Counted from the stretch's first letter, positions 4,689 to 26,967 are shown. The stretch: 31,105 nt of DNA from a virus (IMGVR_UViG_3300025324_000026:1-31105); one strand, 5' to 3'. Notes: a model not told the origin generated them from the letters alone. Translations and numbers: made by a program.

Positions 4689-5171
4689 TTAATTTATAAA
4701 TAGATTTGTTTGATTGCCTTTTGTTTGTTTTATTTTGGCTTTTGCCCCCTTGAGCGTTTTTGCCATTCCTAAATATACTGTCTTATTATTTACTCTCTCA
4801 TTAATCATCCAAAATTTTCTTTTTTTATGAAAGTGAATACAAATTGATGGTTGGTGGTTTGTTTTGTTTTTAGAAACGCGCTTTTTTAGCGGAAATGGTT
4901 TGTTTTTATTATTTTGTGAATGTGTGCAATGCCAAATATTATTTTTTTGATTATTCAACCCGTTTCTGTCCTTGTGGTCTGTTACCATATTTATTGGCGG
5001 CTTGCCTATAATTAAATGATGCAAATACATTTTTCTTTTTTTTCCAATACTACATTTTGCATAATTATTGGTTCTTCGCTTGTCTACGCACCATGTAAAT
5101 TTTGATGCTTTTTCAAAGTCATCATCGTCTATCATTGCAAAATATCCTTGTGAAAGTGGAATTTTTTTCAT
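4689..5171 (-). CDS. HNH homing endonuclease with AP2-like DNA-binding tail
   Basis: 160 aa from ATG 5171 (MKKIPLSQGYFAMIDDDDFEKASKFTW). The opening matches free-standing phage HNH nucleases. HNH core: MYLHHLIIGKPPINMVTDHKDRNGLNNQKNN, with the His-His, Asp-His and Asn of the beta-beta-alpha metal site. Residues about 110-150 (SICIHFHKKRKFWMINERVNNKTVYLG, then KTLKGAKAKIK) match an AP2-type DNA-binding module. Such proteins nick or cut DNA and spread by homing. The gene interrupts two unrelated small genes and has a long AT-rich upstream spacer (5172-5406), consistent with insertion. Confidence 0.88.
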   Translation of the reverse strand: MKKIPLSQGYFAMIDDDDFEKASKFTWCVDKRRTNNYAKCSIGKKRKMYLHHLIIGKPPINMVTDHKDRNGLNNQKNNIWHCTHSQNNKNKPFPLKKRVSKNKTNHQPSICIHFHKKRKFWMINERVNNKTVYLGMAKTLKGAKAKIKQTKGNQTNLFIN

Positions 5172-5406
5172 AAAAAAAATACCCGCAAACATTACAAAGG
5201 TCGTCCAGTCCCCTGAATTATTCAGAGTTGAGGCAATGTAACGAATGCGGGATTTTTTAATATTTTCATAACTGAACGACAGGGCAAATATAATAATAAA
5301 AATAATATTCTATTATATTTCCGTTAAAAGTGTGGTCTCCACTATATCAATAAAATATTTATCCCTTCTCTCCCCTGCTGCCTTTCGGCTGTTACTGCTT
5401 ACCCTC

Positions 5407-5620: not shown

Positions 5621-6019
5621 TTAGTTATTAATTCGTTTTGTTTTTAAAAATATTTTGTTCGTGCGTCTAATTAGGTGTTCGGGTGAGAATTGCCCCCGTA
5701 TATTTAAAAGAGAAAATTTTATTCTGTATTTATTAATGTAGTCCGATTCCTTTAGTAGCGCTTCGTCAAAATTATCAGTAAAAAACAGTTTTTTTAATCT
5801 CGGCAACTTGTCCATAGATTTTAAATTTTGAACATATTTTAAAACGGCAGTATTTGCGCCGCTTGAAACATGGTGTCGGTATCTGTTAATTAGATTGCTC
5901 GTATATCCTACATAAAAAGGTTGTTTGCTAATAGGACAAATCAACGCATAAATACAATAACGCTTTGTCATTCTAAATTGCGTTAATTTTTTTGTTTTAT
6001 TCCAAAATCTTAATTTCAT
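5621..6019 (-). CDS. GIY-YIG nuclease-domain protein
   Basis: 132 aa. Residues about 20-100 carry the GIY-YIG core: CIYALICPISKQPFYVGYTSNLINRYRHH (the IYALI and YVGYT strands, then the conserved Arg and His) and a Glu in the later helix (DEALLKESDYINKYR). The family cleaves DNA with one metal ion and includes homing and repair nucleases. The short length and absence of a further DNA-binding domain fit a free-standing phage GIY-YIG protein. It follows the HTH micro-gene (6061-6213) and has one copy of an 18-bp repeat directly upstream of its ATG. Confidence 0.85.
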   Translation of the reverse strand: MKLRFWNKTKKLTQFRMTKRYCIYALICPISKQPFYVGYTSNLINRYRHHVSSGANTAVLKYVQNLKSMDKLPRLKKLFFTDNFDEALLKESDYINKYRIKFSLLNIRGQFSPEHLIRRTNKIFLKTKRINN

Positions 6020-7430: not shown

Positions 7431-7967
7431 TCAACCCTTTAATTTTTCCTTAATTTTCGCAAATCTTGCCAAATATCCCGCATTATTTCTTTTCGCGGTG
7501 TCTTTTTTGCCTTTTGGTCTGCCCAAAGTCGTGCCCGAAGCCCTGACGCGCCTCAATCCCTCCTTTGTTCTTTCCGAAATTAGTGAGCGTTCAAATTCGG
7601 CAAAAGCGGAGAGAATTTGAAAATGTAATTTTCCCGCCGCTGTTGTGAAGTCAATATTATCGGAAATGGAAATGAACGCGATTCCCTTACTTGTTAGTTC
7701 TTGCAACTCCAGTATCAATTCTGCGGAACTTCGCGCCCAGCGGTCAAGTTTATACACAATAACGCCCAAATATCTACCATTGCGAAGGTCTGCCAGTAGT
7801 TGCGCCTTAATTGGTCGCGTTTTGCGGGTGCTTTCCGTTTCTTCGTAGAAATCAAACGGAAGGTTGAGCCGGTTACAATGTTCCTCTAATCGCTGCCGCT
7901 GTCCTTCGGTGGTTTGTCCCTCTGTACTTACGCGAGCATAACAAGCGTATTTAGTTGCCGTTGTCAT
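7431..7967 (-). CDS. Serine recombinase (resolvase/invertase family)
   Basis: 178 aa from ATG 7967 (MTTATKYACYARVSTEGQTT). Frame upstream of this start reads as AT-rich leader and contains a TATATTTG -7 box (8003-7996). The catalytic domain is complete: YARVST with Ser14 as nucleophile, VIVYKLDRWARSSAEL with the active-site arginines, and the long E-helix ILSAFAEFERSLISERTKEGL. After GRPKG only a 28-residue basic tail follows (KKDTAKRNNAGYLARFAKIK), so the usual C-terminal HTH is missing or replaced. It may catalyse integration, resolution or inversion. The downstream HTH gene may assist it. Confidence 0.9.
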   Translation of the reverse strand: MTTATKYACYARVSTEGQTTEGQRQRLEEHCNRLNLPFDFYEETESTRKTRPIKAQLLADLRNGRYLGVIVYKLDRWARSSAELILELQELTSKGIAFISISDNIDFTTAAGKLHFQILSAFAEFERSLISERTKEGLRRVRASGTTLGRPKGKKDTAKRNNAGYLARFAKIKEKLKG

Positions 7968-8657
7968 AGTGTTTGGATTTAGTTTATATCGGCTGCAAAT
8001 ATACGGACAATTATTAATAATAATACTACCATAATAAAAAGATATAAACAATTAGAACAAACATAGAGTGAAACGCTCCCGAACCGAGACACAAAAATAG
8101 TGGGCTGTTGCACTTTCTACATTTCCCCCATTCAAACGCAACGAACAAGCGACTCAATGTTACATTGCTTTGCCTGTGTTATATCCTTGCTGCCTGATTA
8201 GTTGCGCCCGTCCGCAACCGGTGAGCGTGTCCGTGAGTGGTGGAAACGGGGAAGTGGTTTGAATCGGAGGGTACACGGTCGCGGATTTCGCTTTCCTGTG
8301 AGCCGATGCACCCCCGCGATGTGGACAATTATCCCCTGAACAATTTTCCACAACTCATTTTTTGTGAATGGTGTTGGAATAATGGAATTGTTGCGTGAAC
8401 GGATTACTGTGGGTGTTTTTGAGAGAAGCGGTATTTTTTTGTGGGGTATTTTGGAAATAGCCGTACCCGGTGGTGTAATAGTTTTTTCTTTTTTGGATTG
8501 TAGCCCCCTATTTGGGCTTTGCGGGGTATTTGGTTGTTGTTGTGGTTAGGGTGTTTGGATGGTTATTTGGGGATGTTGCTTTCTTTTAGTTGCTGCCTTA
8601 TAAAATTCCCTCCTATTGAGCAGCTACCTATTCCATTGCACCCCAGAGTTACTGTGG
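7968..8657. other. 690-bp region between recombinase and late genes, no convincing gene
   Basis: Besides the recombinase leader (7968-8050), no frame has both a good start and coding character. 8130-8345 is GC-richer than the surroundings. 8350-8590 is strikingly G+T-rich on the plus strand. A short inverted repeat agccc/gggct (8502-8506, 8514-8518) could form a hairpin. As the spacer between the end of the TerL transcript and the recombinase promoter, it is a candidate for an attachment site, which cannot be proven here. Confidence 0.5.
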
Positions 8658-9332: not shown

Positions 9333-11402
9333 TCAGGATAACATTTGTTTAACAAGTTCTTTATCATCTTCGTCTTTTTTGGAGTTAGAATAGGTGCGAA
9401 AGTACTGTATTTTTTTGTTATCGTGGTTTTTTATGAAGATTTTTTTTTGGCAGGCAAGGAGGGATAGCCCGAAAGCTACGGTGCAATCGTGTGGTGTCCA
9501 CTTCTCGGGGTCAAAGGCAATGAGGTCTTCAAGGAGTTCGGGGAAAAAGAGTTTTCCGTAAAATTCTGTTTGAAGGTCAAAACCTACCTGCTCGTAGATA
9601 TAGGAAATTATGGCGTTGATGAGCGCGCCTCTTGCTTCTTCTCCTGTGAGCGGTATGCCTACCTCCTGCTGCTGCTTTGAATAGGTGGTCTGCGTGGATT
9701 CTGGTCTACGCATGAGATACTGATAGTACCCTTTCTGCCGGAAATAGTTTATAAGCCCTATCTTATTGTTTTCGCAAAGAAGTTCACATCCGTAAAAAAC
9801 ACACTGCATTAACATATCTTCGTAAAATGCTTCTGGTGTGTGTGGTCTGGCGATGTACTGAGAAACCGGCAGGGAACTACTTACATGGTCAAAAGGGTCA
9901 TATTTCTTAAAAACATAACTCGCAGCATTGGATTTGCGGTTGTCAGTGGTGAACTTATGGTCAAAAGGGTCTGCACCCGCGACATGGTTCGGATTCCCCG
10001 GACACACCTTTCCGTAGGATATTACCTGCTTGTTTGTATCTTGGTCTTTGGGTCTCCATACGATATGCCACCGTCCGCTTTCATCGGGAACGAATTTTGC
10101 CGATATTCCCCATTTTACCCAAACGAAGTTTCCCCTTATCACCGTGCTTGCAGGAAGTGTCTCGTTATATTCCATCTGCTTGTATATGCGGTCAAGGTCA
10201 AAGAGCGATTCCTTGTTGTCTATGACGAAAAGGTCAGATTCGTAAAGAGGATATTTCCTGCGGTAGGATAGTAATGCGGCTCCGGAAAGTGTGCTGCGCT
10301 TCTTCATGTGGTAGGCAAGAGCCGCCTCTTTGTTGGAGTAGCCGTATTCATCTACGAAGGACACACCTTCGTCCTCTCCGCGAAAACCATAGTATGCAGG
10401 GTTGAAATAGCGGTACATGCCCCCGTCCGTCTGCCCTAATACATTTCTTTTGTTTTGGTCGGAGATTTTCCATACATTATAGAACTGCCGTCCCCCTTTC
10501 TTTTCCATCTCCTCCACCGTTGTCGTCCAAAGGGCTTTGCCTGTAACTACATTACCATCGCTGATACATTCTTTTACTACAAGCCAGCGTTCTAATACAT
10601 TGCCATTTTTGGGGGTTACCTTGCCAACCTCGTCAGAGAAATGAAATAACAGCCCGTCTCCGTCATAATGTTCGTCCAATGCCGTGCCGAAATCTATTTC
10701 AGAGCGGAGTACCTGCGAATAGCTTTTTTGTTGTGTCTTGCTTGTTCTCGTGGCGGGTTCGTAAAATCTAAGTGATGAAGAAGGATTTGTTTCCCCTGTG
10801 TCTATTGGTTTGAAAAAGTCAGGTAACTTCTGCCACGACTTAATAAGTTTTTTAAACACCTTCTTTCCGTCTCCGTCCGTCTTGCTCTGTATTCCACCGT
10901 GCGATTCGGGGGTTTGTGATATAGTGTCGTATAGGCGGCAAGTGCTGCGATATGTTTTACCACTGCGACGGAAAGAGGCAATAAGCATGCCATAACATTT
11001 GGGGTCAATTTCACATTGCCTCCAGAAATATGCCTCGTCCCTGTCCGAATCTACGAAAGAGGGGAGTCCTAATATCTTCTTGCCGTTTTTTACTACGGGG
11101 AACTTCCAGTAGTTGATGTATAGGTAGTGGTTGCCTGTTATGTATTCAAGATTACCGTTGTTGAAAAACCAATATCCCTCCCTGCGCCTTTTCCATTCGC
11201 GGGTCTCAAATTCTTTTCTTCTTTCGGGTTGCCATAAGCGAAGGTCGGGCGGTACTGTTACAGGAACAAAGCGTTGGTCTTTCTGCGGTAGGTTGTGTCC
11301 GTCAATGAGGTCAAAGGGTGGTGGTTTCGGGAGTTCACACTTTAATCCGTAAATCTCTCTCTCTCTCTGGAAGTTTTTATATGATTCGCGGGCGATGCTC
11401 AT
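9333..11402 (-). CDS. terL: Terminase large subunit (TerL)
   Basis: 689 aa, the motor that packages phage DNA. Walker A is a variant, IASFRRSGKTYR (residues about 141-152). Walker B is LLFHFSDEVG (about 251-260), with Asp-Glu as catalytic pair. The RNase H-like nuclease starts at VAGADPFDH (about 474-482) and includes CELLCENN and a late acidic site HDCTVAFGLSLL near residue 650. The N-terminal 120 residues contain an aromatic segment (YITGNHYLYINYWKFP) seen in large Bacteroidetes-phage terminases. It is transcribed opposite to portal and capsid and lies about 12 kb from them. Confidence 0.93.
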   Translation of the reverse strand: MSIARESYKNFQREREIYGLKCELPKPPPFDLIDGHNLPQKDQRFVPVTVPPDLRLWQPERRKEFETREWKRRREGYWFFNNGNLEYITGNHYLYINYWKFPVVKNGKKILGLPSFVDSDRDEAYFWRQCEIDPKCYGMLIASFRRSGKTYRSTCRLYDTISQTPESHGGIQSKTDGDGKKVFKKLIKSWQKLPDFFKPIDTGETNPSSSLRFYEPATRTSKTQQKSYSQVLRSEIDFGTALDEHYDGDGLLFHFSDEVGKVTPKNGNVLERWLVVKECISDGNVVTGKALWTTTVEEMEKKGGRQFYNVWKISDQNKRNVLGQTDGGMYRYFNPAYYGFRGEDEGVSFVDEYGYSNKEAALAYHMKKRSTLSGAALLSYRRKYPLYESDLFVIDNKESLFDLDRIYKQMEYNETLPASTVIRGNFVWVKWGISAKFVPDESGRWHIVWRPKDQDTNKQVISYGKVCPGNPNHVAGADPFDHKFTTDNRKSNAASYVFKKYDPFDHVSSSLPVSQYIARPHTPEAFYEDMLMQCVFYGCELLCENNKIGLINYFRQKGYYQYLMRRPESTQTTYSKQQQEVGIPLTGEEARGALINAIISYIYEQVGFDLQTEFYGKLFFPELLEDLIAFDPEKWTPHDCTVAFGLSLLACQKKIFIKNHDNKKIQYFRTYSNSKKDEDDKELVKQMLS

Positions 11403-12313: not shown

Positions 12314-12345
12314 CAAATTTATAAACTTTTCCGATATATGTACAA
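12314..12345 (-). promoter_or_regulatory. Canonical promoter of the TerL operon
   Basis: TTG (12345-12343), 21 bp, TAAATTTG (12321-12314) on the minus strand. The -7 box overlaps the last codons of the upstream glycosyltransferase, which separates TerL expression from that of the glycan genes. Transcription should start near 12308. Confidence 0.75.
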
Positions 12346-13809
12346 TGGTTTGTCAATATGTACGGAAGTTTTCAATGCTCCATCGCGCACCATTTCTAAG
12401 GAGTGGTGCGTATCGGTCGCTCTATCACGCTCCTTTGAAAGTTCCTTAAACTTGTACCGAATAGCAATATCCTTTTTTATCGCGTTGAGATGTCCGGGCG
12501 GGCGCATGAATATCTTATTTGTGTTTTTGTATTCCTTGTAGTCAATATGTGAATTGAACTGCTGCGGATTTATTCCGTTGAATGTTACGATTCCGTTAAA
12601 GGTTATTACATCGGGGTTTTTCTTTGTCGCCTCGTAGATTTCTTTTATGTAGTCGGAACTTACTTCATCGTCATCATCGGTGAACATCACATACTTCGCG
12701 TTGGACTGCTCCACAAGCCAATTTCTTTTATATCCTATGCTTAGTTTTCCATCGTCAATATAGTGGCTTACCCTGATTTCGTTTTGAAGTTTTAATGAAT
12801 TAATCTGCCCGTGCAAAGATTTTGTTATTCTCTGAAAAAAGCGGGCGCGGTTTCTCAAAGAAGGGATGAGGATTTCTATTTGTGTTTGGGGTTTTTCCTC
12901 AATAGCCGCGGGAATTATTCTTGGTATATTTTTTATAGGCGCCTCTGTTTCTGGATTCATTGTTGCGGAAAAATTGGATGATTCTCCCAAAGAATAAGTT
13001 TCATCCGTCCTTAATAAATCAAACTCGTTTATATCCGAATTTATGTTGTTGTATGCGTGATTCAGGTAGAGAATATTTGTTAAAAAGTCGTCGTTGTATT
13101 CTTTTGACAACAATATATTAAGGTCGGTTATTCTTCCGCGATACGAAGAATATTTCCACAAATTACAATTTGATTTTATGCTTAACATTGATAATTCGTT
13201 GCAGGACAAATATTTTTTTCTTACGCCTTCTATTTTTGAAATCACCCTGTCCATTGACATATCTAAGCCCGAATTCAGATTGTCATCCCAAAGAGAATAA
13301 TTATTCCTTGAAACAATATATGTACTAATCAGGCGCCCACACCCCAGCGACTTATCCCTGGAATCGTTGTTATAACCCAACCATAATTTACACTGCAAAC
13401 TAAAAATATCAACCAAGTAATAATCTGTAATCGCTATGAAATTATTTTCCGGAATAAGTTTCAGATATTTTTCGAATAAACTTATTGAAGGATAGTCGTC
13501 CGACCCTAATATGAAAAAATAATCAAATGGTGTTCCTTTTGCTGCAGATATGGTGGCGTTCCACTTTTTCCCAAGGGGTTCGTTTGGTGATTCTACCCAT
13601 GTTCCGGATTTTCCTACTGTAGCGTTGAAAATTCTCCTGCACTCTCCTCCGTAGTCGTTGACGGAACCTCCGCAGAAAAGGTGGAACTTAATTTTATCGC
13701 TAAGGGATTTCTTGAAAAAAAGATACCACTTAAGGAATAGTTTAAAAACCATCGGGCGGTCATAGGCGCAGGTAATTACGGCTATTTTTATAGGGAGGCG
13801 GCTATCCAT
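12319..13809 (-). CDS. Tandem-domain glycosyltransferase (two GT-A/GT2-like domains)
   Basis: 496 aa with two glycosyltransferase halves. Domain 1 (about 5-240) opens IAVITCAYDRP and has FFILGSDDYPS at 98-108, where the acidic pair replaces the DxD sugar-nucleotide site. Domain 2 (about 310-495) opens IEILIPSLRNRARFF and has YVMFTDDDDEVSSDY as its DxD-type motif, followed by PPGHLNAIKKD. A linker with TMNPETEAPIKNIPRIIPAAIEEKP joins them. Such proteins transfer sugars from nucleotide donors. The two domains may add successive sugars. It is the last gene of the glycan operon and overlaps the methyltransferase by 22 bp. Confidence 0.85.
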   Translation of the reverse strand: MDSRLPIKIAVITCAYDRPMVFKLFLKWYLFFKKSLSDKIKFHLFCGGSVNDYGGECRRIFNATVGKSGTWVESPNEPLGKKWNATISAAKGTPFDYFFILGSDDYPSISLFEKYLKLIPENNFIAITDYYLVDIFSLQCKLWLGYNNDSRDKSLGCGRLISTYIVSRNNYSLWDDNLNSGLDMSMDRVISKIEGVRKKYLSCNELSMLSIKSNCNLWKYSSYRGRITDLNILLSKEYNDDFLTNILYLNHAYNNINSDINEFDLLRTDETYSLGESSNFSATMNPETEAPIKNIPRIIPAAIEEKPQTQIEILIPSLRNRARFFQRITKSLHGQINSLKLQNEIRVSHYIDDGKLSIGYKRNWLVEQSNAKYVMFTDDDDEVSSDYIKEIYEATKKNPDVITFNGIVTFNGINPQQFNSHIDYKEYKNTNKIFMRPPGHLNAIKKDIAIRYKFKELSKERDRATDTHHSLEMVRDGALKTSVHIDKPLYIYRKSL

Positions 13810-14354
13810 AATCTCTCGTGTTGTCCTTTTAACTCCTTGCCAATCTGCCCCTTCATCAAAACCTTAAATCCATTATCGGCAAAAACTTTTATCAGAATGT
13901 CGGAAGAAAAATGACCCACAACCGTTTTGTCGGGTTTATATCCTTCCGGATTTTGTAATTCCAGCCACATTTTATTGGGCGTCAAAACAAATATTTGTGT
14001 GCCCTTCTCACAAAAATCCTTAAGCCGCTCAAGGCAATAATTTATATTGGGAATATGTGCCAGCGAGTGCATGAAATATATTTTATTAAATGTAAAGTGA
14101 TATGAATTTCGTATGTATGGCTGAGGATTTCCTTCAAAAAAATCATAAACATCATATCCATAAACATCTCCCTCTGTTTTTCTTTTCAAATATTCAATCA
14201 TAGTCCCTATTCCACAACCATAATCCAATACTTTCTCGATGGGTTGTATGTCCATAAGTTTTTTCATGAAATCCATTTCGGATTTATACTTCTCTGTATC
14301 GTTGAATCCCTCCAATTTTTTTTTGTATTCCAATATTTCTAAGTTAGTTTTCAT
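13788..14354 (-). CDS. SAM-dependent class I methyltransferase
   Basis: 188 aa. Residues about 40-56 (EKVLDYGCGIGTMIEYL) are the glycine-rich SAM motif. YGYDVYDFF has the acidic residue that binds the ribose. FMHSLAHIPNINYCLERL resembles the post-motif region of Methyltransf-11/23 proteins. In this context it probably methylates a sugar or glycan rather than DNA, since no DNA-target domain is present. It overlaps the upstream GT4 gene by 4 bp (ATGA-type coupling) and the downstream glycosyltransferase by 22 bp. Confidence 0.85.
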   Translation of the reverse strand: MKTNLEILEYKKKLEGFNDTEKYKSEMDFMKKLMDIQPIEKVLDYGCGIGTMIEYLKRKTEGDVYGYDVYDFFEGNPQPYIRNSYHFTFNKIYFMHSLAHIPNINYCLERLKDFCEKGTQIFVLTPNKMWLELQNPEGYKPDKTVVGHFSSDILIKVFADNGFKVLMKGQIGKELKGQHERLWIAASL

Positions 14355-15280
14355 TTTTTTATTTTTGTTAGTATGTTTTTTAAATAGGTGCCCGTTGATT
14401 TATAAGAGTGTTTTTCTTCAACCCATTGTCTTGTTTGATTCTGCAAATTTCGTATTTCTTTTTTGGTTAAACCCAACAACCAATTAATTTTTTTTATGAA
14501 ATCCGATTCATCCTCAATAAGTATAAGAGGACTTCTGCCGTAATGCTTTTCATAAATTTCAGAAGACAAATTTTGAGTTACCACAACCTTCCCCATTGCA
14601 GCGGCTTCCAATGCGGTTATCCCCCAACTGCCATATTTCTTTCCGCTCAATTCGGGTTTTAAAAGTTCTATGTAAATATCGCAGTTTTGCATTTTTTTCT
14701 GTTGCGCGGAATAGGGGTATTTTATGTCGTTTTCGTTATAATTAAAAATAAACCGGTTTGTCGCGCCTATTTCTTTCATTAACCTAACGATTGTTTCGGT
14801 TCCCTTTACTTCTTTTTTAGATGGATAGTGGGCGAGAACAAGTTCTTTGTTTTGTGTGGGTTCGGGTTTTATTTTTTCGGTGTCGGTGGCGCCAACCACA
14901 TAAATCTCATTCTTTGCTCCGTGATTCATAAGTTCACCAAGGGCGGTAAATGAAATTTCAACAAGCGGATTGAAGATATTGTTTAGTTTTTCCGGTTCGC
15001 TCCTGTAACCACTTCCGGTGTGATACACTACCAATGGTTTCCCTAAATATTTTACATGGTTTAAAATATTATAGTCAGAATGAAATATTTGTATAATGTC
15101 TGCATTCGAACAAACATTTTTAATTTCAGAATGATTAATAACCGTGGAGGTTTGGTCGTAGTCAAAGGCATGGGGTTTGTTAACATAAGAGGAACATTCT
15201 ATGCCAACTGAATTCAGCGCACGGCAGTTGTCGTATGCGAAATTTGCCCAGTCGTTCGTGCAGATATTAACAACCCTCAT
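14351..15280 (-). CDS. GT-B glycosyltransferase (GT4-like)
   Basis: 309 aa. The C-terminal half has the GT4 donor-site pattern SGKKYGSWGITALEAAAMGKVVVTQNLSSE, with the E-x7-E-like region and Gly-Ser-Trp-Gly loop. The N-terminal half is a Rossmann-like acceptor domain (MRVVNICTNDWANFAYDNCRALNSVGI, PLVVYHTGSGYRSEP). It lacks a signal peptide, so it should act in the cytoplasm. It is coupled to the formyltransferase upstream by a 14-bp overlap. Confidence 0.85.
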   Translation of the reverse strand: MRVVNICTNDWANFAYDNCRALNSVGIECSSYVNKPHAFDYDQTSTVINHSEIKNVCSNADIIQIFHSDYNILNHVKYLGKPLVVYHTGSGYRSEPEKLNNIFNPLVEISFTALGELMNHGAKNEIYVVGATDTEKIKPEPTQNKELVLAHYPSKKEVKGTETIVRLMKEIGATNRFIFNYNENDIKYPYSAQQKKMQNCDIYIELLKPELSGKKYGSWGITALEAAAMGKVVVTQNLSSEIYEKHYGRSPLILIEDESDFIKKINWLLGLTKKEIRNLQNQTRQWVEEKHSYKSTGTYLKNILTKIKK

Positions 15281-16208
15281 CGTAGCCCCCCCTGTAATTT
15301 ATTGAAAATTTATTCTTTACTTTTTCGTTATTGAAAACATTTCCAACACTCATATCGCCCTCAAATTCTTCTATGAGTAACAGTCCTCCGAAACATTTTA
15401 CGATTGGGCAATCGCAAACAACACTCACCACTTCACCGACAGTTGAGTTATAAAAATCAAATTCATCATTTACAACTTGCGCCTTTTTGATGATTATTTT
15501 TTTTTCTCCAATAAAGCCATATGCGCTTCCGAATGGCTCTGACACTGCTCTTATGTGCCGATGTATATCATGTACGGATTTTGTCCAGTCAATCAGGTTA
15601 TACTCGTAGGTTCTCTTGGGATAGAATGTAGGACTGATATTTTTTTGAGGCGTTGGCGATATTTCTCCGTTAATAATTTTTAGAATGTTTTTCTTTACCA
15701 AAAAAACCATTGCCATAGTGTTTTTTATGTGCATTGTCTTTGCCGTATCGGTGTCGGTTATCTCAAACTTATATTTATCCACAATATCGCCATCGTCTAT
15801 TCCTGGTTTGTATTTAAAAAGATTAGTATAAAAAGATTTCCTACCTTCTATTAAAGCCCAATTCATCGGGGAGCGACCCCTTCCAATGGGGAGGTCAAAT
15901 GCGCTGCCGTGCATACCATACACACCGAAACTGAATGTGTTTAGCGCTTCTTCGGGTATTAGTCGTTGCCAGCCTAAACAAAAACCTATGTCGTATTTTT
16001 TGTTTTTGAAATACTCAATGTCATTTTTTAATGAATATGTGTTTGCCCGATATTTGAATGGCAAAATTTCTTTGTACCCTGCAACTGAATTTATCATTGC
16101 ACACTCCGGGGATATTGTTATCAGGTCGGCTTCCGTAAAAACACTTAATAGCGAAACTGTAGTGTCCTTACAGCCGAATATTGCTATTGATATATCTTTC
16201 AAATTCAT
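15267..16208 (-). CDS. Formyltransferase-fold protein (sugar N-formyltransferase-like)
   Basis: 313 aa. Residues about 70-145 show the formyl-THF transferase core: YDIGFCLGWQRLIPEEAL, YGMHGSAFDLPIGRGRSPMNWAL, FYTNLFKYKPGIDDGDIV. The catalytic His (about 100) and the Asp of GIDDGDI (about 138-139) are present. The Asn that precedes His in methionyl-tRNA formyltransferase (N-x-H) is Gly here (G98-M-H). In glycan gene clusters such enzymes N-formylate amino sugars using N10-formyl-THF. That role fits the neighbours better than tRNA formylation. It overlaps its upstream neighbour by 41 bp. Confidence 0.82.
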   Translation of the reverse strand: MNLKDISIAIFGCKDTTVSLLSVFTEADLITISPECAMINSVAGYKEILPFKYRANTYSLKNDIEYFKNKKYDIGFCLGWQRLIPEEALNTFSFGVYGMHGSAFDLPIGRGRSPMNWALIEGRKSFYTNLFKYKPGIDDGDIVDKYKFEITDTDTAKTMHIKNTMAMVFLVKKNILKIINGEISPTPQKNISPTFYPKRTYEYNLIDWTKSVHDIHRHIRAVSEPFGSAYGFIGEKKIIIKKAQVVNDEFDFYNSTVGEVVSVVCDCPIVKCFGGLLLIEEFEGDMSVGNVFNNEKVKNKFSINYRGGYDEGC

Positions 16209-16821
16209 CTTGTTTTTTTTCCTTTATTTTTTTTATGTTTTCATGTAGGTGGTCGCTGCCATTCATCCACCAGATAGGGTGAATAAGTACCTGTAAGGGA
16301 TAAGAAACAATAAATTCTTTTGATTCAAAAATTCCATGAATTGTTTTATCGCACCGGCTGTCAGAAAAATATTTAATGTCTGAAAAATATTCTTTTTCGT
16401 AACTGTGGTGAAAGGGGAGGGTGTTGTTATTTAGAAAATATTTGTCGGGTCTGTGGATTGAGGTAAAATATTCTTTTTTCGGAAACCTCTCTTTTATTAT
16501 ATTCATTTGTTGCCAAAACTGCTCTCTTATGTTTTTTCCGTCTGTTATATTAAAATGAAGTCCTACATTATGATTGTTTCCTATGTATTGCAGAATATAC
16601 TCTTTGTCGGTGTCAAATAAATTATATGCGGAAGAACCAACCAAAAAAAAATAATTTGCCTTAATTCCCATATCCGTTTCCATCTTCGCCATTTCGTAAG
16701 CGGATTCAAGGCTGAAATCTATATCGTGTCGCAAAATAAGGTCTCCAACATTATACTGTTTTTTGTGAAAATCCACAAAAGTATAATTTGATTTAAGCCT
16801 ATGTAATACTTCGCTATACAT
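16168..16821 (-). CDS. Polysaccharide-deacetylase-like (NodB/CE4-type) protein
   Basis: 217 aa. NodB-type features: ILRHDIDFSLESAYEMAKMETDMGI (HD motif in the first strand-helix unit, with the A-x3-A-x3-E spacing of this subgroup), ANYFFLVGSSAYN, NHNVGLHFN, and FTSIHRPDKYFL, whose His could be a metal ligand. Enzymes of this class remove N-acetyl groups from sugars. A free amine made this way would be a substrate for the adjacent formyltransferase. The start overlaps the preceding stop as TAATG. Confidence 0.78.
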   Translation of the reverse strand: MYSEVLHRLKSNYTFVDFHKKQYNVGDLILRHDIDFSLESAYEMAKMETDMGIKANYFFLVGSSAYNLFDTDKEYILQYIGNNHNVGLHFNITDGKNIREQFWQQMNIIKERFPKKEYFTSIHRPDKYFLNNNTLPFHHSYEKEYFSDIKYFSDSRCDKTIHGIFESKEFIVSYPLQVLIHPIWWMNGSDHLHENIKKIKEKKQDEFERYINSNIRL

Positions 16822-17543
16822 TAAAGTAGTTGCCTTTTTGGTCTTGATTTTACTACATCATAAATAGAATACTTATATTCCACTCCCAACCTGTTCAATG
16901 TTCCGTTTGGTAGATTCTTTCGGTAAAGATAAATCGGCTCATAAACTATTCCTATCCTGTCTTTACCACACATTTCAAGGCACGAAAACATTGTTTCTGA
17001 TTCGGTGGTGCTGTCTATCCACTTCCCGTTAATCATAAAATCTTCTTGTGGAATTTTCGCAAAAATGAATTGATAAAAGGTGTTGGGGCAGGTGGAACGG
17101 TAAAGGACTTTTCTGTAATCTCTATTTTTGTGTGTTTCTTCGTCAAAATCAAGTTGAAATGTTTTGGGGAGCATTTCTCCTCTTTGGTCTATCCAGTTTC
17201 CGTAGGTCATCCACTTTCCCTTCATGTAGTAATCTACAACTGTTTCAAGGCAATGGGGAAGCATTTCATCATCCATTCCCAATAACAAAATAATATCATC
17301 GGGATTTGCGTATTTGTGAATGGCAAAATATCTCCTGTGGGCTGCACCGCGATTATCGGGGTGTATTTCGCTAATAATGTTCGGGGTTGAAAATTTCAGT
17401 ATCTCGGATTCCGTGTCGTCTGTACTACCGTCTGAAATGGCAATGAGTAAGAAGTTTTTATATGTTTGGTTTATCGCGCTATCTAAACATTTCTTAACAT
17501 ATTCGGAGCAATTAAAACCGGTGCATATAATTACAAATCTCAT
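16821..17543 (-). CDS. Family 2 glycosyltransferase
   Basis: 240 aa with classic GT2 features. The N-terminal strand MRFVIICTGFNCSEYVKKCL and CLDSAINQTYKNFLLIAISDGSTDDT (conserved DGSTDDT) form the nucleotide-binding half. The metal site is ILLLGMDDEML in place of DxD, followed by YGNWIDQRG in the acceptor region. It is the first gene of the glycan operon. It begins 18 bp after the terminator U-tract at 17561-17566 and no promoter lies between, so expression depends on read-through from upstream. Its stop is TAATG-coupled to the next gene. Confidence 0.88.
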   Translation of the reverse strand: MRFVIICTGFNCSEYVKKCLDSAINQTYKNFLLIAISDGSTDDTESEILKFSTPNIISEIHPDNRGAAHRRYFAIHKYANPDDIILLLGMDDEMLPHCLETVVDYYMKGKWMTYGNWIDQRGEMLPKTFQLDFDEETHKNRDYRKVLYRSTCPNTFYQFIFAKIPQEDFMINGKWIDSTTESETMFSCLEMCGKDRIGIVYEPIYLYRKNLPNGTLNRLGVEYKYSIYDVVKSRPKRQLL

Positions 17544-17560
17544 TTCACATTGTATTTTAC

Positions 17561-17592
17561 AAAAAAGGCAGTCCGAGTTTCCGAACCGCCTT
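17561..17592 (-). terminator. Intrinsic terminator after the 140-aa gene
   Basis: On the minus strand AAGGCGGTTCGG (17592-17581) pairs with the segment 17577-17565 (CTCGGACTGCCTT) with a few G-U pairs around an AAA-containing loop, followed by a run of six U (17566-17561). It lies 24 bp after the stop of the 140-aa gene and just before the glycan operon, so it should set a strong-to-weak expression step. Confidence 0.8.
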
Positions 17593-18100: not shown

Positions 18101-18703
18101 TTATTTTTCCAAAACCGCAATAATATCTTTATCTTTCATACAATAATATTTTTTGCCCTCTACCTCAATATCGTAGTCGGAATTGGCTGTAAAAGCAACT
18201 GTGTCGCCTTTCTTCGCTCCTTGTTCGGCAAGTTTTTTATTCATGTGCCTCAGAATACCTATGTTCTTGCTTTCCTTTATTGCTGAATCGGGAGTAATTA
18301 TCAAAGAGGATTTTTTTTCTTCGTTTGTCGGCTCTACAAGGCAATGTTCTCCAAGCATTTCAATTTTTTCTTCCACGATTTTGCAGAAAATACTTTCATA
18401 AATTATATGATAAAGAATTTCACCATTTACCTCAACTTGGTTTTCTTCATCGCAAAGAAAGTGGTGACAAAAAACTTTATCGCCTTTCTTTATTTCTATT
18501 TTCTGTTTGTTGCTTAATTTGGCGGGAACATATTCTACAATACCGTCTTGGGTCACATTTCCTGCGTGGTGAGGATTAAACCTTGTATCAATAACAATGT
18601 TTATTCCCCCTGCAAGGGTTTTGTTCTTTGCCTTATCTTTATCCGCACGGATAAATACATAGTCCCTGATTGGAGCAAAGTTTTTAGAATCTATTGATAG
18701 CAT
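18101..18703 (-). CDS. Tandem GroES-like co-chaperonin
   Basis: 200 aa with two GroES-type (Cpn10) beta-barrel repeats. Repeat 1 (about 8-110): FAPIRDYVFIRADKDKAKNK, GGINIVIDTR, GIVEYVPAK, IKKGDKVFCHHFLC, VNGEILYHIIYESIFCKI. Repeat 2 (about 114-200): MLGEHCLVEPTNEEKKSSLI, NIGILRHMN, AKKGDTVAFTANSDYDIEVEG, KYYCMKDKDIIAVL. Each has the start strand, the mobile-loop region, the KKGD turn and the closing IY/V segment. Known phage co-chaperonins replace host GroES for capsid folding; here two domains are fused in one chain. The start shares one base with the preceding stop (TAATG). Confidence 0.82.
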   Translation of the reverse strand: MLSIDSKNFAPIRDYVFIRADKDKAKNKTLAGGINIVIDTRFNPHHAGNVTQDGIVEYVPAKLSNKQKIEIKKGDKVFCHHFLCDEENQVEVNGEILYHIIYESIFCKIVEEKIEMLGEHCLVEPTNEEKKSSLIITPDSAIKESKNIGILRHMNKKLAEQGAKKGDTVAFTANSDYDIEVEGKKYYCMKDKDIIAVLEK

Positions 18704-19165: not shown

Positions 19166-19320
19166 GGATGTCTGGCTATATGCGGGTGAAACTCCCCTAC
19201 CCTAAAGGGATAGGGGCTTCGTGCTTCACAGAACGGCTATTGCCTTTCTCCACACGCTTGACATCCGACATTTCCTGCCGTAGTTGTTTGACATTATTTT
19301 TATAGAAACAAAAATCTCTT
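19166..19320 (-). ncRNA. Candidate omega RNA from the 3' end of tnpB
   Basis: In TnpB elements the guide RNA scaffold covers the 3' end of tnpB and the right-end hairpin, with the guide taken from flanking DNA. Here the tnpB stop (19199-19197) lies inside that hairpin. The guide would be the bases just after TTTCAC, beginning CCGCATATAG (19185 downward). The 5' limit is a guess from known lengths. Confidence 0.4.
19194..19216 (-). repeat. Right-end hairpin of the TnpB element
   Basis: CCCCTATCCC-TTTA-GGGTAGGGG forms a stem of about 9 bp with a TTTA loop and overlaps the tnpB stop codon, a layout typical of IS200/IS605 right ends. Confidence 0.8.
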
Positions 19321-20402
19321 ATGTTCAGCGAAGCGTTTTTATCACGGTCATTTACAGAACCGCAATTAGCACAAGTCCACTCTCTGTCTTTCAGAGTAAG
19401 CGAATGGTTTGTTGCTCCACATGGATTACAGATTTTTGATGATGCTTCAAATTGTCCGCAACGCAAAATATTTGAACCATACCACAATGCCTTGTACTCA
19501 ATTAGCGTATTGAATTTACCTATTGCAATATCGCTTAATGCTTGTGCAAGTTTATGGTTTGCCATCATGTTTTTTGCTTTCAATGTTTCAAGACAGACAG
19601 TTTGGTTTTCGCTGACTAATTTCTTTGTAACCTTATGCAAAAAATCATTTCTTTTGTTGCTGACTTTCTCATGTTGCTTTGCCAGAGCGATACGGGCTTT
19701 GTTTCTATTATTGCTTCCTTTTACTTTTTTACTTACTTTTCGTTGTAACTGTTTTAATCGCCTTAATGACTTCCGTAGATGCTTTGGATTTTTAATTTGT
19801 TCTCCATTGCTCAAAGTTGCAAATGTTTTAATTCCTAAATCTACTCCAACTGCTTTTTTTATCGTAGGAACTTTTGATGTTTTTTCTTTGTCATTAGTTT
19901 CAACAAGCACCGAAGCGAAGTATTTACCTGTTGGAGTTTTGCTGATGGTAGTGGTTTTTATTTTACCCTCAAACTTTCTATGCAGGACAATATTGATACC
20001 TGACTTTAATTTAGGAATGAATAATTTACCTCCATCAAAATCTACTTTTGCATTTTGCGGAATAGAAAAACTTTGTCTGTTATCATGCTTTGATTTGAAA
20101 CGAGGAAACCCTTTTTTCTCTTTGAAGAAACGAGTAAATGCCTTATCTAAATTCTCTAAACTTGCTTGTAATGTTTGACTATTCACTTCAGATAGCCATT
20201 TTGTTTCTTCTGTTTCCTTTAGTTTCGGAAGGGTTGCCTGTATATCAAATCGTGATGGGGATTTTCCTGTTTCCTTGTATGATTTTACCTTTGTATCAAG
20301 CGCATGATTGTAAATCCAACGAGAACAACCCAAATGCTGATGAATTACATTTGCCTGTTCTTTGGTCGGGTATAACCTGTACTTATATGCACGGAGTAAC
20401 AT
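19197..20402 (-). CDS. tnpB: TnpB RNA-guided nuclease (IS200/IS605 family)
   Basis: 401 aa from ATG 20402 (MLLRAYKYRLYPTKEQ), the usual TnpB opening; the in-frame ATG at 20441 adds an unlikely hydrophobic tail. The RuvC-like site is intact: VGVDLGIKTF with Asp188, CLETLKAKNM with Glu272, and NDRDKNASLN with Asp near 354. The zinc finger has Cys325, 328, 344 and 347 (ICNPCG ... TCANCG). TnpB cuts DNA guided by the omega RNA and keeps its element in place after transposition. No frameshift is seen, so it is probably functional. Confidence 0.95.
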   Translation of the reverse strand: MLLRAYKYRLYPTKEQANVIHQHLGCSRWIYNHALDTKVKSYKETGKSPSRFDIQATLPKLKETEETKWLSEVNSQTLQASLENLDKAFTRFFKEKKGFPRFKSKHDNRQSFSIPQNAKVDFDGGKLFIPKLKSGINIVLHRKFEGKIKTTTISKTPTGKYFASVLVETNDKEKTSKVPTIKKAVGVDLGIKTFATLSNGEQIKNPKHLRKSLRRLKQLQRKVSKKVKGSNNRNKARIALAKQHEKVSNKRNDFLHKVTKKLVSENQTVCLETLKAKNMMANHKLAQALSDIAIGKFNTLIEYKALWYGSNILRCGQFEASSKICNPCGATNHSLTLKDREWTCANCGSVNDRDKNASLNIRDFCFYKNNVKQLRQEMSDVKRVEKGNSRSVKHEAPIPLG

Positions 20403-20487
20403 ATCGCAAAGATAGAAATAATATTTTAGAACTTGTATCATTGTATTCTAAAAGTTATGAACATAGTTTGTTCGCTTTCATCCTACT

Positions 20488-21231: not shown

Positions 21232-21615
21232 TTAGGTTTCAATATTCACCTTCGCCTCCAAAATTTCCTTTTCTTTCGCAAGATAATCTTCCAAAGTTTT
21301 CCCCTCTTGCATCATCGGTTTTTCTTCGCTGCGGTCGGCAGCGGCTGCGTATTTCTTCAACCCTACCTTCTGCCAAAAATCTTTTTTCGGCTGCGGTACT
21401 TTTATTTTCACCGTTTCGGTTTTTACGGTGTTTTCTTCAATAACGAAAAATTCGTTTTGCAACTTTGTGAGTTTTTCGTTCAGCGTTTTGATTCGCTCAT
21501 TGTTGCGGTTTCGGAACTCGCGGATTTTGGAATGGTGGAAAATTCCCGTTATGTGGTTTTCCATTTTCGCCATTTCGTTCCAGTGGTCAAGAAGTTTTTT
21601 ATTGGTGATTTCCAT
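21232..21615 (-). CDS. Hypothetical coiled-coil protein (127 aa)
   Basis: Residues about 30-65 (REFRNRNNERIKTLNEKLTKLQNEFFVIEE) form a predicted coiled coil. The middle is basic and Pro-containing (IKVPQPKKDFWQKVGLKKYAAAADR). The C-terminal helix EDYLAKEKEILEAKV ends the chain. No enzymatic motif is present. It overlaps the HNH gene upstream by 17 bp. Confidence 0.65.
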   Translation of the reverse strand: MEITNKKLLDHWNEMAKMENHITGIFHHSKIREFRNRNNERIKTLNEKLTKLQNEFFVIEENTVKTETVKIKVPQPKKDFWQKVGLKKYAAAADRSEEKPMMQEGKTLEDYLAKEKEILEAKVNIET

Positions 21616-22075
21616 GTGTGAGTATGTGTAAATTATGTACTGATTTTAATTTTTCTTTCAATTCTTTTTTATCTCCGAACTCGGTGTGGCATTTGCGGCA
21701 GAGTGCCATTAGGTTCTCAATAATATTCTTTTCGCCTGTTTTATCCCCTCCTCGCCCGCGAGATTCAATGTGGTGAATATCCACAGCGGTTTTTTCGCAA
21801 ATTTCGCATGGGATAAAAGAAGAAGAATCGTACCCGAAAAAATCAAAATAAATTTGTTTGTGATTTGATTTCTGATTAAACTTTTTCTTCAACGAACTAA
21901 AAACTTTTTTTCTTTCTTCTCCCGATAATTTAGTTGCCGTGGGGCTGTGGCGGTTTGCTTTTCGCTCGGCTTTTAAATCAAAATTACATCGCTGGCAAAG
22001 TCCGTTCTTGCAAGGAATAATATCCTTCCTTTTGCATTTTTCGTTGGCACAAATTCCGAATTTTGGTTTATACAT
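21599..22075 (-). CDS. HNH endonuclease with zinc sites
   Basis: 158 aa. The N terminus has a Cys4 zinc ribbon (CANEKCKRKDIIPCKNGLCQRC). The C-terminal HNH (about 88-140) reads PCEICEKTAVDIHHIESRGRGG, then NIIENLMALCRKCHTEFGDKKE, with CxxC pairs, the catalytic His-His and the Asn/His of the motif. HNH proteins in phages act as homing nucleases or, when next to terminase, in DNA packaging. TerL is about 10 kb away, so either role is open. It sits within a run of small genes. Confidence 0.88.
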   Translation of the reverse strand: MYKPKFGICANEKCKRKDIIPCKNGLCQRCNFDLKAERKANRHSPTATKLSGEERKKVFSSLKKKFNQKSNHKQIYFDFFGYDSSSFIPCEICEKTAVDIHHIESRGRGGDKTGEKNIIENLMALCRKCHTEFGDKKELKEKLKSVHNLHILTHGNHQ

Positions 22076-23335: not shown

Positions 23336-25669
23336 ATGGCAACCGAACCCATCTCTACCTCGCATTCAGGATTTCCCTCCGACTTCGTTTCCTTTGAAAC
23401 AAAGAAGTCCCCCGAATTTATACGGCAATTTCTCCGCGCCATGTATCAGGCGAAGCAAAAAAATGTATCGTTCTTTGAGCGCGAAAATGACCGTATTATC
23501 AACAACAGGAAATATGCGGAAGGGCTGCAAAGCATTGAGAAATACAAAAATTGGTTTAATGACGAAGGCGACACCTCGTACCTCAACCTTGACTATTCCG
23601 CAATACCGATAGTAAAGAAATTCGTGAATATCCGTGTGGGCGAAATGCTGAATATGGATTACAAAATCTACTGCCGCTCAACCGATGTAAAATCGCTCAC
23701 CGAAAAAGATACCGAAAGAAACAAGTTCCTTGCCAATATGAAGTTGAAGGAATTTTCGGATATGCTCAAAGAAGAAACGGGCGTTCCTATCATACCAGAG
23801 AACGAATATGTTCCCCAAGACACGGAAGAATTGGAGATACACCTTGACTTTAATTTTAAGTTGGGAACGGAAATCGCCACCGAAAAACTTATTGACTTTA
23901 CCTTTGCATACAACGATTGGAAGCGGGAACGCAAGCATATCATACGCGACCTCGTGGTAATAAAGAAATGCGCTGTAAGATTATATTACGATGAAAACAG
24001 TCGTGTGCGCCTGCGCTATACGGATTGGGCGAATATCATCACTCCTTTTGTGGTAAAGGATAATTTCTCCGATGCCAAATATGCGGGTGAGGTTATAAAA
24101 ATGCCCCTCCACGAAATAAGAAGAATGGATATTAACAACGACCTTTCGGAAGAAGATTTATTTGAGATAGCAAAGCGGTTTGCGGGGAAATTCGACAATC
24201 CTTCATGGGATAACAGGGCAACCTCTTTCCACCAATATTTTAATACCAACGGAAAGACCAATGCGGGGTATGACGACTTCCTTGTTCCTGTGCTGGACGG
24301 AGAGTTTATCAGTTTGAATGTGGAGAAGTGGGAAGAAAAGCCAAATAGCAAGGGCGGCTTTTTCTATAATAGAAAATCCTCCGACTATCAGACGGAAGAT
24401 AAAAGCCGCAAGGTAACAGCCAAAGAACTTGAATACCTGTATAAAGGGAAGTGGATTGTAGATACCGACTACCTCTTTGATTTCGGGATGGCAAAGGATA
24501 TAATGCGTACCAAGAAAAACGGCAAAATATCTCCCGAAACAAAGTTGAACTTCCTGATGCTTGCGCCCGATATTATTGATATGCAGAACAAGGCGATGGT
24601 AGAGGATATTATTCCGCAAGCCGACCAGATGCAACTTGTGGGATTGAAGATACAGCACCTCGTAGCGAAGTTAGTACCCCCCGGAATGGCGGTAGATGTA
24701 AATGCGCTGAAAGATGTTTTTTTGGGTAAGGGCGAAAACGCATGGGCACCCCTTGAAATACAGGACTTGTACCAACACTTAGGAACTTATTATTACAACG
24801 GTGCTGATTTGAATGGTATGCCTATGAACCGCAAACCGATTGAAGAAATAAAGCAGAACATAGGAACGGTGCTTACCGAACTTGTGAATACATACAACTT
24901 CTATTTGCAGCAAATACGCGATATGTCTGGGATAAATGAGATGCGCGATGCCTCTACTCCTTCTGCCGACCAAGGGCTTGGTGTAAGCAAAATGGCACTC
25001 GGAAGCAGCCGCAACGCAACAAGGGCAATAGATTACGCCTTTGTAGAAATCTTTGAAATGACGGCAACCCGCATGGCAGAGATGTTACAATATAATATAA
25101 TGAGGGGAAGAAACATTGAAGAATACAAAAACGCTATCGGCAGCATTGATGTAGATACATTAAAGGTACTTGATGAAATCCCTCTGCGCGATTTGGGAAT
25201 ATTCGTTGAAGCGAAGATTGAGGGTGATGAAAGAATGTTACTTGAGCAAAATATACAAATGGAGATAACCCAAAAAACTTTGGGGACGGAAGATGCGATA
25301 ATGATACGCTCCATACTGAACACCAAACAGGCGAACCGCTATTTGATATACCGCAAGAAAAAGCGCATGGAAGAACAAATGATGATAGCGCAGAAGAACG
25401 CACAGGACAACGCAATGGTGCAGCAGCAGTCGGCAGCAGCAAAGGCACAGATGGAGCAACAGGTGATACAAGCGGAGGTGCAGGGCGATATTACAAAGAA
25501 AGAAAATGAATACAAATTAAAGGATTGGCTGGAAGAAAGGAATTTTGAAAGAAAGCAAAAAGAACTTCGGCTAATCAGCGATTTGAAGTTGGGCGAAATG
25601 CACACCAGTTATGACAGGGATTTTCAACAAGCGGCTTTAGATAAGGTTGGGGAGAAGAGGGTGGCTTAG
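23336..25669 (+). CDS. Portal protein
   Basis: 777 aa, the dodecameric ring at the DNA-entry vertex. The N-terminal third (SPEFIRQFLRAMYQAKQKNV, YLNLDYSAIPIVKKFVNIRVGEML) and the central part (WKRERKHIIRDLVVIKKCAVRLYYDENSRVRLRY, YFNTNG, then LYQHLGTYYYNGADLNGMPMNRKP and MSGINEMRDASTPS) match portals of large Bacteroidetes phages. The last 110 residues are a Gln/Glu/Lys-rich coiled coil (EEQMMIAQKNAQDNAMVQQQ). Its length is at the upper end for portals. It precedes scaffold and capsid in the same direction but is separated from them by the minus-strand cassette at 25701-26967. Confidence 0.88.
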   Translation: MATEPISTSHSGFPSDFVSFETKKSPEFIRQFLRAMYQAKQKNVSFFERENDRIINNRKYAEGLQSIEKYKNWFNDEGDTSYLNLDYSAIPIVKKFVNIRVGEMLNMDYKIYCRSTDVKSLTEKDTERNKFLANMKLKEFSDMLKEETGVPIIPENEYVPQDTEELEIHLDFNFKLGTEIATEKLIDFTFAYNDWKRERKHIIRDLVVIKKCAVRLYYDENSRVRLRYTDWANIITPFVVKDNFSDAKYAGEVIKMPLHEIRRMDINNDLSEEDLFEIAKRFAGKFDNPSWDNRATSFHQYFNTNGKTNAGYDDFLVPVLDGEFISLNVEKWEEKPNSKGGFFYNRKSSDYQTEDKSRKVTAKELEYLYKGKWIVDTDYLFDFGMAKDIMRTKKNGKISPETKLNFLMLAPDIIDMQNKAMVEDIIPQADQMQLVGLKIQHLVAKLVPPGMAVDVNALKDVFLGKGENAWAPLEIQDLYQHLGTYYYNGADLNGMPMNRKPIEEIKQNIGTVLTELVNTYNFYLQQIRDMSGINEMRDASTPSADQGLGVSKMALGSSRNATRAIDYAFVEIFEMTATRMAEMLQYNIMRGRNIEEYKNAIGSIDVDTLKVLDEIPLRDLGIFVEAKIEGDERMLLEQNIQMEITQKTLGTEDAIMIRSILNTKQANRYLIYRKKKRMEEQMMIAQKNAQDNAMVQQQSAAAKAQMEQQVIQAEVQGDITKKENEYKLKDWLEERNFERKQKELRLISDLKLGEMHTSYDRDFQQAALDKVGEKRVA

Positions 25670-26206: not shown

Positions 26207-26719
26207 CTATTTTTTTGCCAAATCCGAAATTGTCGTGTCAAGTGCTTTCGCTATCTCCTCCTTTTGGTATTCTGATAATGGTATCGTAAAACTGTAAAAT
26301 ATATTATAAATTCTCGTTTTGGTGAATCCCGTTTCTTGGCTCAAGTTGATGAAATTCATCCCTTTTGAATACATGATTTGTTTGGCGTTCATTAAAAAAA
26401 TGTGGTCTGGGTTCTTTTTATATCTTTTCTTTTCTTTAGGGGTGTTGTTGTCGTTGGTAAGTTTATAGCCCCAAGCAAACAATTGCTGTGTCCAATATCT
26501 CTCCAACCAATTAGCATTTTCGGTTTCAGAAAAATCTAATATTTCTATGATAGGTTTTAGGTTTTTTCTTTTTAGGTCGGAAATCCATTTTTGTTTTTCA
26601 ATTCCCTCGTTTTTTAGAATGTGTCCTCTGATTCTTTTGGCTAAATTTTTTGTTCTGCCCACATATTTTATTTCTCCTGTATTGGGGTCGGATAGCGTGT
26701 AAATAAAAATCTCATTCAT
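26207..26719 (-). CDS. GIY-YIG nuclease fused to a Cro/C1-type HTH
   Basis: 170 aa from ATG 26719 (MNEIFIYTLSDPNTGEIKYV). Residues 3-85 are a GIY-YIG domain: IFIYTLSDPNTGEIKYVGRTKNLAKRIRGH and a Glu in the later helix (NANWLERYWTQQLF). Residues about 112-170 (NAKQIMYSKGMNFINLSQETGFTKTRIYNIFYS, then LSEYQKEEIAKALDTTISDLAKK) are an XRE-type HTH. The start overlaps the XRE gene's stop as ATGA. The nuclease-HTH pairing suggests site-specific cutting or a nuclease that controls its own operon. Confidence 0.85.
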   Translation of the reverse strand: MNEIFIYTLSDPNTGEIKYVGRTKNLAKRIRGHILKNEGIEKQKWISDLKRKNLKPIIEILDFSETENANWLERYWTQQLFAWGYKLTNDNNTPKEKKRYKKNPDHIFLMNAKQIMYSKGMNFINLSQETGFTKTRIYNIFYSFTIPLSEYQKEEIAKALDTTISDLAKK

Positions 26720-26967
26720 GTCGCCAATGTGATTAAATCGGTTTTTAATGCCCATGCGATTTTTTCCATACTCTTTATTGATGGATTTGCCGATGGATGG
26801 GTTAATACATATCTGATGTAAAATTTATCCGAATCTATTCGGCTTCCCAATTCGGTTTGTGTCATATCTAATTCCTTCATTAATTTTCTGATATTTTTTC
26901 TGATAATATCCATTCGCGTTTTTAAGAGTGATAATACTTCCTTCCTTTCAATAGTTGGTGTTTCCAT
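26716..26967 (-). CDS. XRE/Cro-C1 family regulator
   Basis: 83 aa from ATG 26967 (METPTIERKEVLSLLKTRMD). The HTH reads IIRKNIRKLMKELDMTQTELGSRIDSDKFYIRYVLTHPSANPSIKSM, followed by EKIAWALKTDLITL, the usual closing helix of XRE repressors. It is first in the minus-strand cassette, behind a TATTTTTG -7 box at 26991-26984, and faces the scaffold gene. It may repress its own cassette, the scaffold/capsid transcript, or both. Confidence 0.82.
   Translation of the reverse strand: METPTIERKEVLSLLKTRMDIIRKNIRKLMKELDMTQTELGSRIDSDKFYIRYVLTHPSANPSIKSMEKIAWALKTDLITLAT

Follow-up and report, generated by a model that had tools for sequence, protein, structure and literature searches.

The viral record IMGVR_UViG_3300025324_000026 is a single complete entry of 31,105 base pairs (bp), probably a genome fragment; its whole length was analysed and is called the window here. 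On its minus strand, between positions 12319 and 17543, six open reading frames (ORFs) form an operon in which each gene overlaps the next, by 1, 41, 14, 4 and 22 nucleotides, respectively. From the first gene onwards they encode a glycosyltransferase (GT) of family GT2, a de-N-acetylase with a CE4/NodB-type fold, a sugar N-formyltransferase (FT), a divergent GT4-like GT, a methyltransferase dependent on S-adenosylmethionine (SAM) and a two-part GT (Table 1). The second and third genes are the centre of this analysis, and their genome context strongly supports a predicted role of their products as an acetyl-to-formyl exchange module carried by a phage.

The layout of six overlapping genes agrees with a preliminary description of the locus, and its labels GT2, formyltransferase and methyltransferase are backed by Pfam matches above cut-off. 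Its label GT4 is weak, the best Pfam match lying below cut-off at an expectation value (E) of about 1e-4, and no phage relative of this protein was found. The "tandem GT" is a protein of 496 amino acids with one GT2 domain (residues 310-492) and an N-terminal half that matches no named library family. Above the cut-offs of NCBIfam none of the six proteins has a match. According to hydropathy there is no membrane protein among them; the FT alone passes the cut-off, with 2 windows as compared to 89 in the ArnT control. Genes for sugar synthesis, which had been noted as missing, are indeed absent among the scanned proteins of this 31-kilobase (kb) fragment.

The FT model (predicted local distance difference test, pLDDT, 91.7) has the formyltransferase domain of ArnA as its closest fold, and ArnA is also the closest PDB relative by sequence. 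Both domains, Formyl_trans_N and Formyl_trans_C, are above the Pfam cut-off, whereas the NCBIfam ArnA model scores 127 bits against a cut-off of 777. The FT belongs to an unnamed subfamily with G-x-H in place of the catalytic N-x-H of ArnA (32 of 33 aligned rows). In the window protein the catalytic triad Asn-His-Asp is thus incomplete, His100 and Asp138 being present together with Gly98 at the place of Asn, a residue with a catalytic role in both ArnA and Fmt. Among the tree rows scanned for this motif Gly was found in all but ArnA, one row being without a match. Furthermore, the subfamily has a two-residue insertion ahead of the LP motif in comparison to ArnA, and an invariant GWQRLIP motif. 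In the tree the window FT falls into a supported set of eight (100/98) composed of FTs from Bacteroidota and Alphaproteobacteria, one acidobacterial FT and the FT of the T4-like viral contig L146. Since the window FT is nested in a supported bacterial clade, the phage probably acquired the deacetylase-FT pair from a cell, a Bacteroidota-type host being the probable donor. Plasmid matches of the FT are mainly ArnA.

The deacetylase has no match in Pfam or NCBIfam, including the WbmS-like Pfam model PF22537 (none at E up to 1), and its profile reached only E 0.08 or worse in the PDB. However, an AlphaFold model built from 22 aligned relatives (mean pLDDT 90) gave 15 Foldseek matches with E ≤ 0.001, and all 15 are CE4 enzymes with their distorted beta/alpha barrel. 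The model matches WbmS of a Bordetella O-antigen locus (3hft) with Z 11.4 over 177 residues and ArnD (8t0j) with Z 10.4 over 160 residues, a tie, as differences in Z near 1 were treated. Comparisons by hhalign with single-sequence templates gave an ArnD profile match of 88.6 % and a weak profile match to one WbmS-like member; the contrasts among WbmS-like, DUF2334 and ArnD were weak and were not used for the choice of a family. Invariant residues of the deacetylase family include R31, H32, D33, H84, H89, H123, D154 and H181. The Asp pair of CE4 motif 1 is present as RHDxD with D/E at 35, and motif 5, L-x-H, as the invariant L179 and H181. Motif 2 departs from the H-x3-H metal ligands: the family has H84-x4-H89 and no His at +4 of H89, and the invariant H123 may replace the missing residue. 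Because of this missing His the enzyme is named here a CE4-fold protein and not a standard CE4 member, so that of the earlier label "NodB-like" the fold stands in a confident model and the family assignment does not.

The pairing of both genes recurs outside the window. A scan with two FT sequences, made regardless of neighbouring genes, fetched 32 cellular loci, and a deacetylase gene adjoins the FT in 28 of them. In 23 loci it is of the window type, the two genes mostly overlapping or nearly touching and the deacetylase usually upstream; in seven loci, six of them haloarchaeal, it lies downstream. Four of the nine remaining loci have a PIG-L de-N-acetylase upstream and one a DUF2334/NodB deacetylase downstream of the FT. 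Just four are without an adjoining deacetylase: L028, L039 (contig end), L040 and L043 (only 26 % identity). A further set consisted of 296 genomes sampled evenly from one phylum, the one that includes G001, in which the Pedobacter locus L016 lies. At an FT match of E ≤ 1e-50 they included six carriers, all of them with an adjoining deacetylase (two of the window type, three PIG-L, one WbmS-like), while none adjoined any of the five ordinary formyltransferases examined in three sampled genomes. Since profile matches of the deacetylase occurred in only 17 of the 296 genomes, chance adjacency is negligible. That one FT subfamily is accompanied by deacetylases from different families speaks for a common reaction, and deacetylation followed by N-formylation, as proposed in the preliminary description, would be this reaction. 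The deacetylase family itself is not bound to the FT: its plasmid matches fall in polysaccharide loci, and five opened regions had no annotated formyltransferase.

In IMG/VR seven further contigs have an FT of the subfamily, all seven with an adjoining deacetylase (five of the window type, one PIG-L, one WbmS-like). One of them, L146, has a T4-type major capsid gene (Gp23 search); the others are viral according to their listing in IMG/VR, and a search with Terminase_6N gave no verification. The huge phage LR745206 (635 kb) has a NodB deacetylase directly before the FT, and about 18 ORFs are clustered in its region LR745206.1 424060-440866 (L002), among them those for epimerase-like and GT-like proteins, the NodB deacetylase and the FT. 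Five viral contigs (L147, L148, L149, L150 and L151) contain the deacetylase-FT pair. In L148 it lies beside NeuB, a CTP-transferase, a DegT aminotransferase and a carbamoyltransferase, which suggests a putative phage-borne synthesis of nonulosonic acid with N-formyl groups. Used as single sequences, neither the FT nor the deacetylase detected any viral or genome contig, whereas alignment-based scans detected the loci; among viral contigs alignment A1 gave no match and the later alignment A4 recovered the seven. No description of the deacetylase-FT pair or of a phage-borne version was found in the open-access literature searched, a weak negative as most subscription journals lie outside that search.

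Unlike the FT with its bacterial ancestry, the last GT of the operon is phage-typical as judged from its sequence relatives. Its C-terminal domain matches Forza gp93, Che8 gp108, Avani gp105 and Yvonnetastic gp25 with E 1e-16 to 1e-23 (Che8 gp108: E 9e-20, one domain only). No match at 1e-8 was found in the 296 sampled genomes; the same search detects four phage records as a positive control. Yvonnetastic gp25 is located three genes ahead of the terminase and near the portal, and Forza gp93 among head-tail genes, between the head-tail adaptor and the tape measure. Che8 gp108 belongs to the same cassette as gp110; proteins of Che8 are glycosylated, and for its capsid glycosylation the GT gp110 is reported to be essential (PMC12363180).

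From the genes, their folds, their pairing, the ancestry of the FT and the phage type of the last GT we infer enzyme activities, an order of steps, a sugar and an acceptor. The cassette of the late region would act in the cytosol of the host, where it would build or edit a sugar chain from host nucleotide sugars. The CE4-fold enzyme would take the N-acetyl group off an amino sugar and the FT would add a formyl group from 10-formyl-tetrahydrofolate to the freed amine. The GTs would assemble the chain and the methyltransferase would cap it, presumably by O-methylation. The likeliest acceptor would be a virion protein, as with mycobacteriophage Che8. We give this account as a whole, with its cytosolic chain, its exchange core and its acceptor, an even chance of being right. 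More tentatively, and with confidence short of that, we propose that the particle is coated with an N-formylated, methylated amino-sugar chain made by the exchange pair, its deacetylase coming from an undescribed family and its FT from the subfamily without Asn, and that this pair is portable among bacteria, archaea and unrelated phages.

Several points weigh against this account. The FT subfamily is without the catalytic Asn of ArnA and the deacetylase without the second His of motif 2, so that the activity of either enzyme is not guaranteed. In the cellular loci the other four genes of the window are absent near the FT, and the likeness to the GTs of actinophages is limited to about 180 residues with about 33 % identity. 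No phage whose virion glycans are proven is known here to have a deacetylase-FT pair. All six genes together were not found as a host locus, the case that the preliminary description had put forward against itself; as a locus of its own, however, the deacetylase-FT pair is common in cells.

The sugar is probably destined for the phage particle or for the surface of the host. That the last GT is homologous to Che8 gp108, together with the soluble nature of the proteins, favours glycosylation of the virion, which we rate at the middle of the scale, over that of a host glycan, which we rate clearly below it. The homology to GTs of Che8, Forza and Yvonnetastic is the main reason for a virion acceptor, and lends indirect support to the earlier proposal of a virion-protein target. 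The more specific suggestion, the product of the adjacent gene 17616, was a guess. This protein has neither a PHROG match nor a phage relative, its gene has the highest GC content among the genes measured alongside the operon, and the strong terminator-like hairpin that follows it separates it from the operon, so that gene 17616 and the cassette may have separate transcripts.

The same exchange on a glycan of the host surface (O-antigen or capsule), altering a receptor and blocking superinfection, is a doubtful but serious alternative. In its home genomes the pair is a module for cell-surface glycans, with DegT aminotransferases, Gfo/Idh oxidoreductases, bacterial sugar transferases and GT4s as neighbours, and WbmS from the O-antigen locus is among the closest folds; moreover, comparable polysaccharide clusters exist in cyanophages (PMC7824862). 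However, according to Pfam and hydropathy the cassette encodes no membrane protein, whether a flippase, a polymerase or one of GtrA type. It lies in the late region beside the terminase and ends with a GT of phage type.

An order of steps as in the Arn system, in which the FT would formylate an amine, the sugar would be transferred and the CE4-fold enzyme would then deformylate it as ArnD does, is improbable. It could draw on the relationship of the FT to ArnA and on both matches of the deacetylase to ArnD, but neither an ArnB aminotransferase nor a dehydrogenase nor the membrane protein ArnC is found among the scanned window proteins. Moreover, the partner of the FT elsewhere is often PIG-L, a family of de-N-acetylases not known to include a deformylase.

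The phage nature of the window follows from PHROG matches of a terminase large subunit, a portal and a head protein. The terminase is about 31 % related to Flavobacterium Elemovirus phages, with further matches including Cellulophaga and Azobacteroides phages; IMG/VR has no close relative (best 36 %), and the closest isolates have genomes of about 60 kb in comparison to the 31-kb fragment. The phage is distantly related to Elemovirus and Cellulophaga phages and its host is probably of Bacteroidota type. In 42 relatives a GroES-like gene precedes the terminase by about 0.4-3.5 kb on the same strand. The window has the same order with a distance of about 6.7 kb that includes the cassette, which had been described as lying between head genes: this is correct for the large terminase downstream, whereas upstream lie gene 17616, without an assigned function, and the GroES-like gene. 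In each of the 80 relatives for which both proteins were matched, portal and terminase share a strand, whereas the window encodes them on different strands with 12 kb in between, which indicates either a large inversion or an assembly join in that interval. The serine recombinase is possibly tied to such an inversion. No obvious TnpA near the TnpB-like gene was found in the ORF list of the window.

Table 1 Features of the window, the six genes of the operon first
Feature	Position	Strand	Remarks
GT2 glycosyltransferase, first operon gene, soluble	16821-17543	(-)	PF00535, 7e-18; nearest NCBIfam TuaG, below cut-off; no hydrophobic segment
CE4/NodB-fold de-N-acetylase, unnamed family	16168-16821	(-)	predicted fold; conserved residues
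Sugar N-formyltransferase, ArnA-like, GxHGS subfamily	15267-16208	(-)	PF02911, 1e-12; PF00551, 3e-9
Divergent GT4-like glycosyltransferase	14351-15280	(-)	best Pfam PF13692, 1.4e-4, below cut-off
SAM-dependent methyltransferase	13788-14354	(-)	PF13489, 5e-13
Two-part glycosyltransferase	12319-13809	(-)	C-terminal GT2 domain PF00535, 1e-10; phrog_14775, 3e-27
Terminator-like hairpin with T tail	17565-17592	(-)	12-pair stem; folding z -4.2; between gene 17616 and operon
Gene 17616, protein of 140 amino acids	17616-18038	(-)	GC 0.49; possible virion protein
GroES-like co-chaperonin	18101-18703	(-)	Cpn10, 5e-19; matched in 42 of 82 relatives
Terminase large subunit	9333-11402	(-)	phrog_6681, 1e-97; related proteins in Elemovirus and Cellulophaga phages
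Portal	23336-25669	opposite to terminase	phrog_6547, 1e-107
Head protein	28231-29610		phrog_13704, 2e-42
Serine recombinase, resolvase/DNA-invertase type	7431-8051		PF00239, 1e-36; phrog_125
TnpB-like transposase protein	19197-20441		phrog_506, 3e-127; amid late minus-strand genes
HNH, homing or GIY-YIG endonuclease genes (four in 31 kb)	4689-5192, 5621-6019, 21599-22075, 26207-26755

The strand reversal, and a GC content of 0.32-0.38 in the operon against 0.42-0.46 in the structural genes, could also come from a chimeric contig in which a bacterial locus is joined to phage DNA. We regard this as very improbable: the operon is bracketed by the GroES-like gene and the terminase, on the same strand and in the order of the relatives, the last GT is of phage type, and neighbouring small phage genes have an equally low GC content. 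Most improbable of all is a transfer of sugars to phage DNA bases, which phages are known to glycosylate, as no enzyme for hydroxymethylated bases is found among the scanned proteins of a genome of which half may be missing, and the GTs of the cassette resemble surface or virion GTs.

The usual account of N-formyl sugars in bacterial surface glycans is the formylation of an amine made by an aminotransferase. A recurring pair with interchangeable deacetylases points to a second route, the re-editing of N-acetyl sugars, in bacteria, haloarchaea, Thaumarchaeota-type archaea and several unrelated phages. Two unassigned enzyme families thereby obtain a candidate role in a testable two-enzyme reaction. 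If the proposed coat is real, N-formylated virions would be relevant to receptor mimicry, to recognition by antibodies and to superinfection exclusion.

The system is a variant on phage glycan cassettes and sugar N-formylation, both of already known kinds. With the N-terminal domain of ArnA the FT shares the fold, both Pfam domains, the catalytic His and Asp and the RGR[AS]P-NW motif; it differs by the Gly, the insertion before LP and the lack of a dehydrogenase domain. ArnD has the CE4 fold in common with the deacetylase and differs in motif 2, and of the lipid A system the companions ArnB, ArnC, ArnD and ArnT are not found among the scanned proteins. The WbmS-like deacetylases share the CE4-type fold and adjoin an FT of the window kind in L135 and L152, an arrangement which presumably also applies to Bordetella wbmS and a formyltransferase gene; they differ from the window deacetylase in their PF22537 domain and the weakness of the profile match. 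The GTs compared from Che8, Forza and Yvonnetastic, phages of actinobacterial hosts, are without a deacetylase or formyltransferase match; their GT2 domain is homologous to that of the window, and those of Yvonnetastic and Forza are encoded near structural genes, as is the window cassette. LR745206 and L146 differ in their NodB or PIG-L deacetylase, in the absence of the other four genes and, for LR745206, in additional epimerase-like proteins; both share with the window an FT of the same subfamily directly beside a deacetylase.

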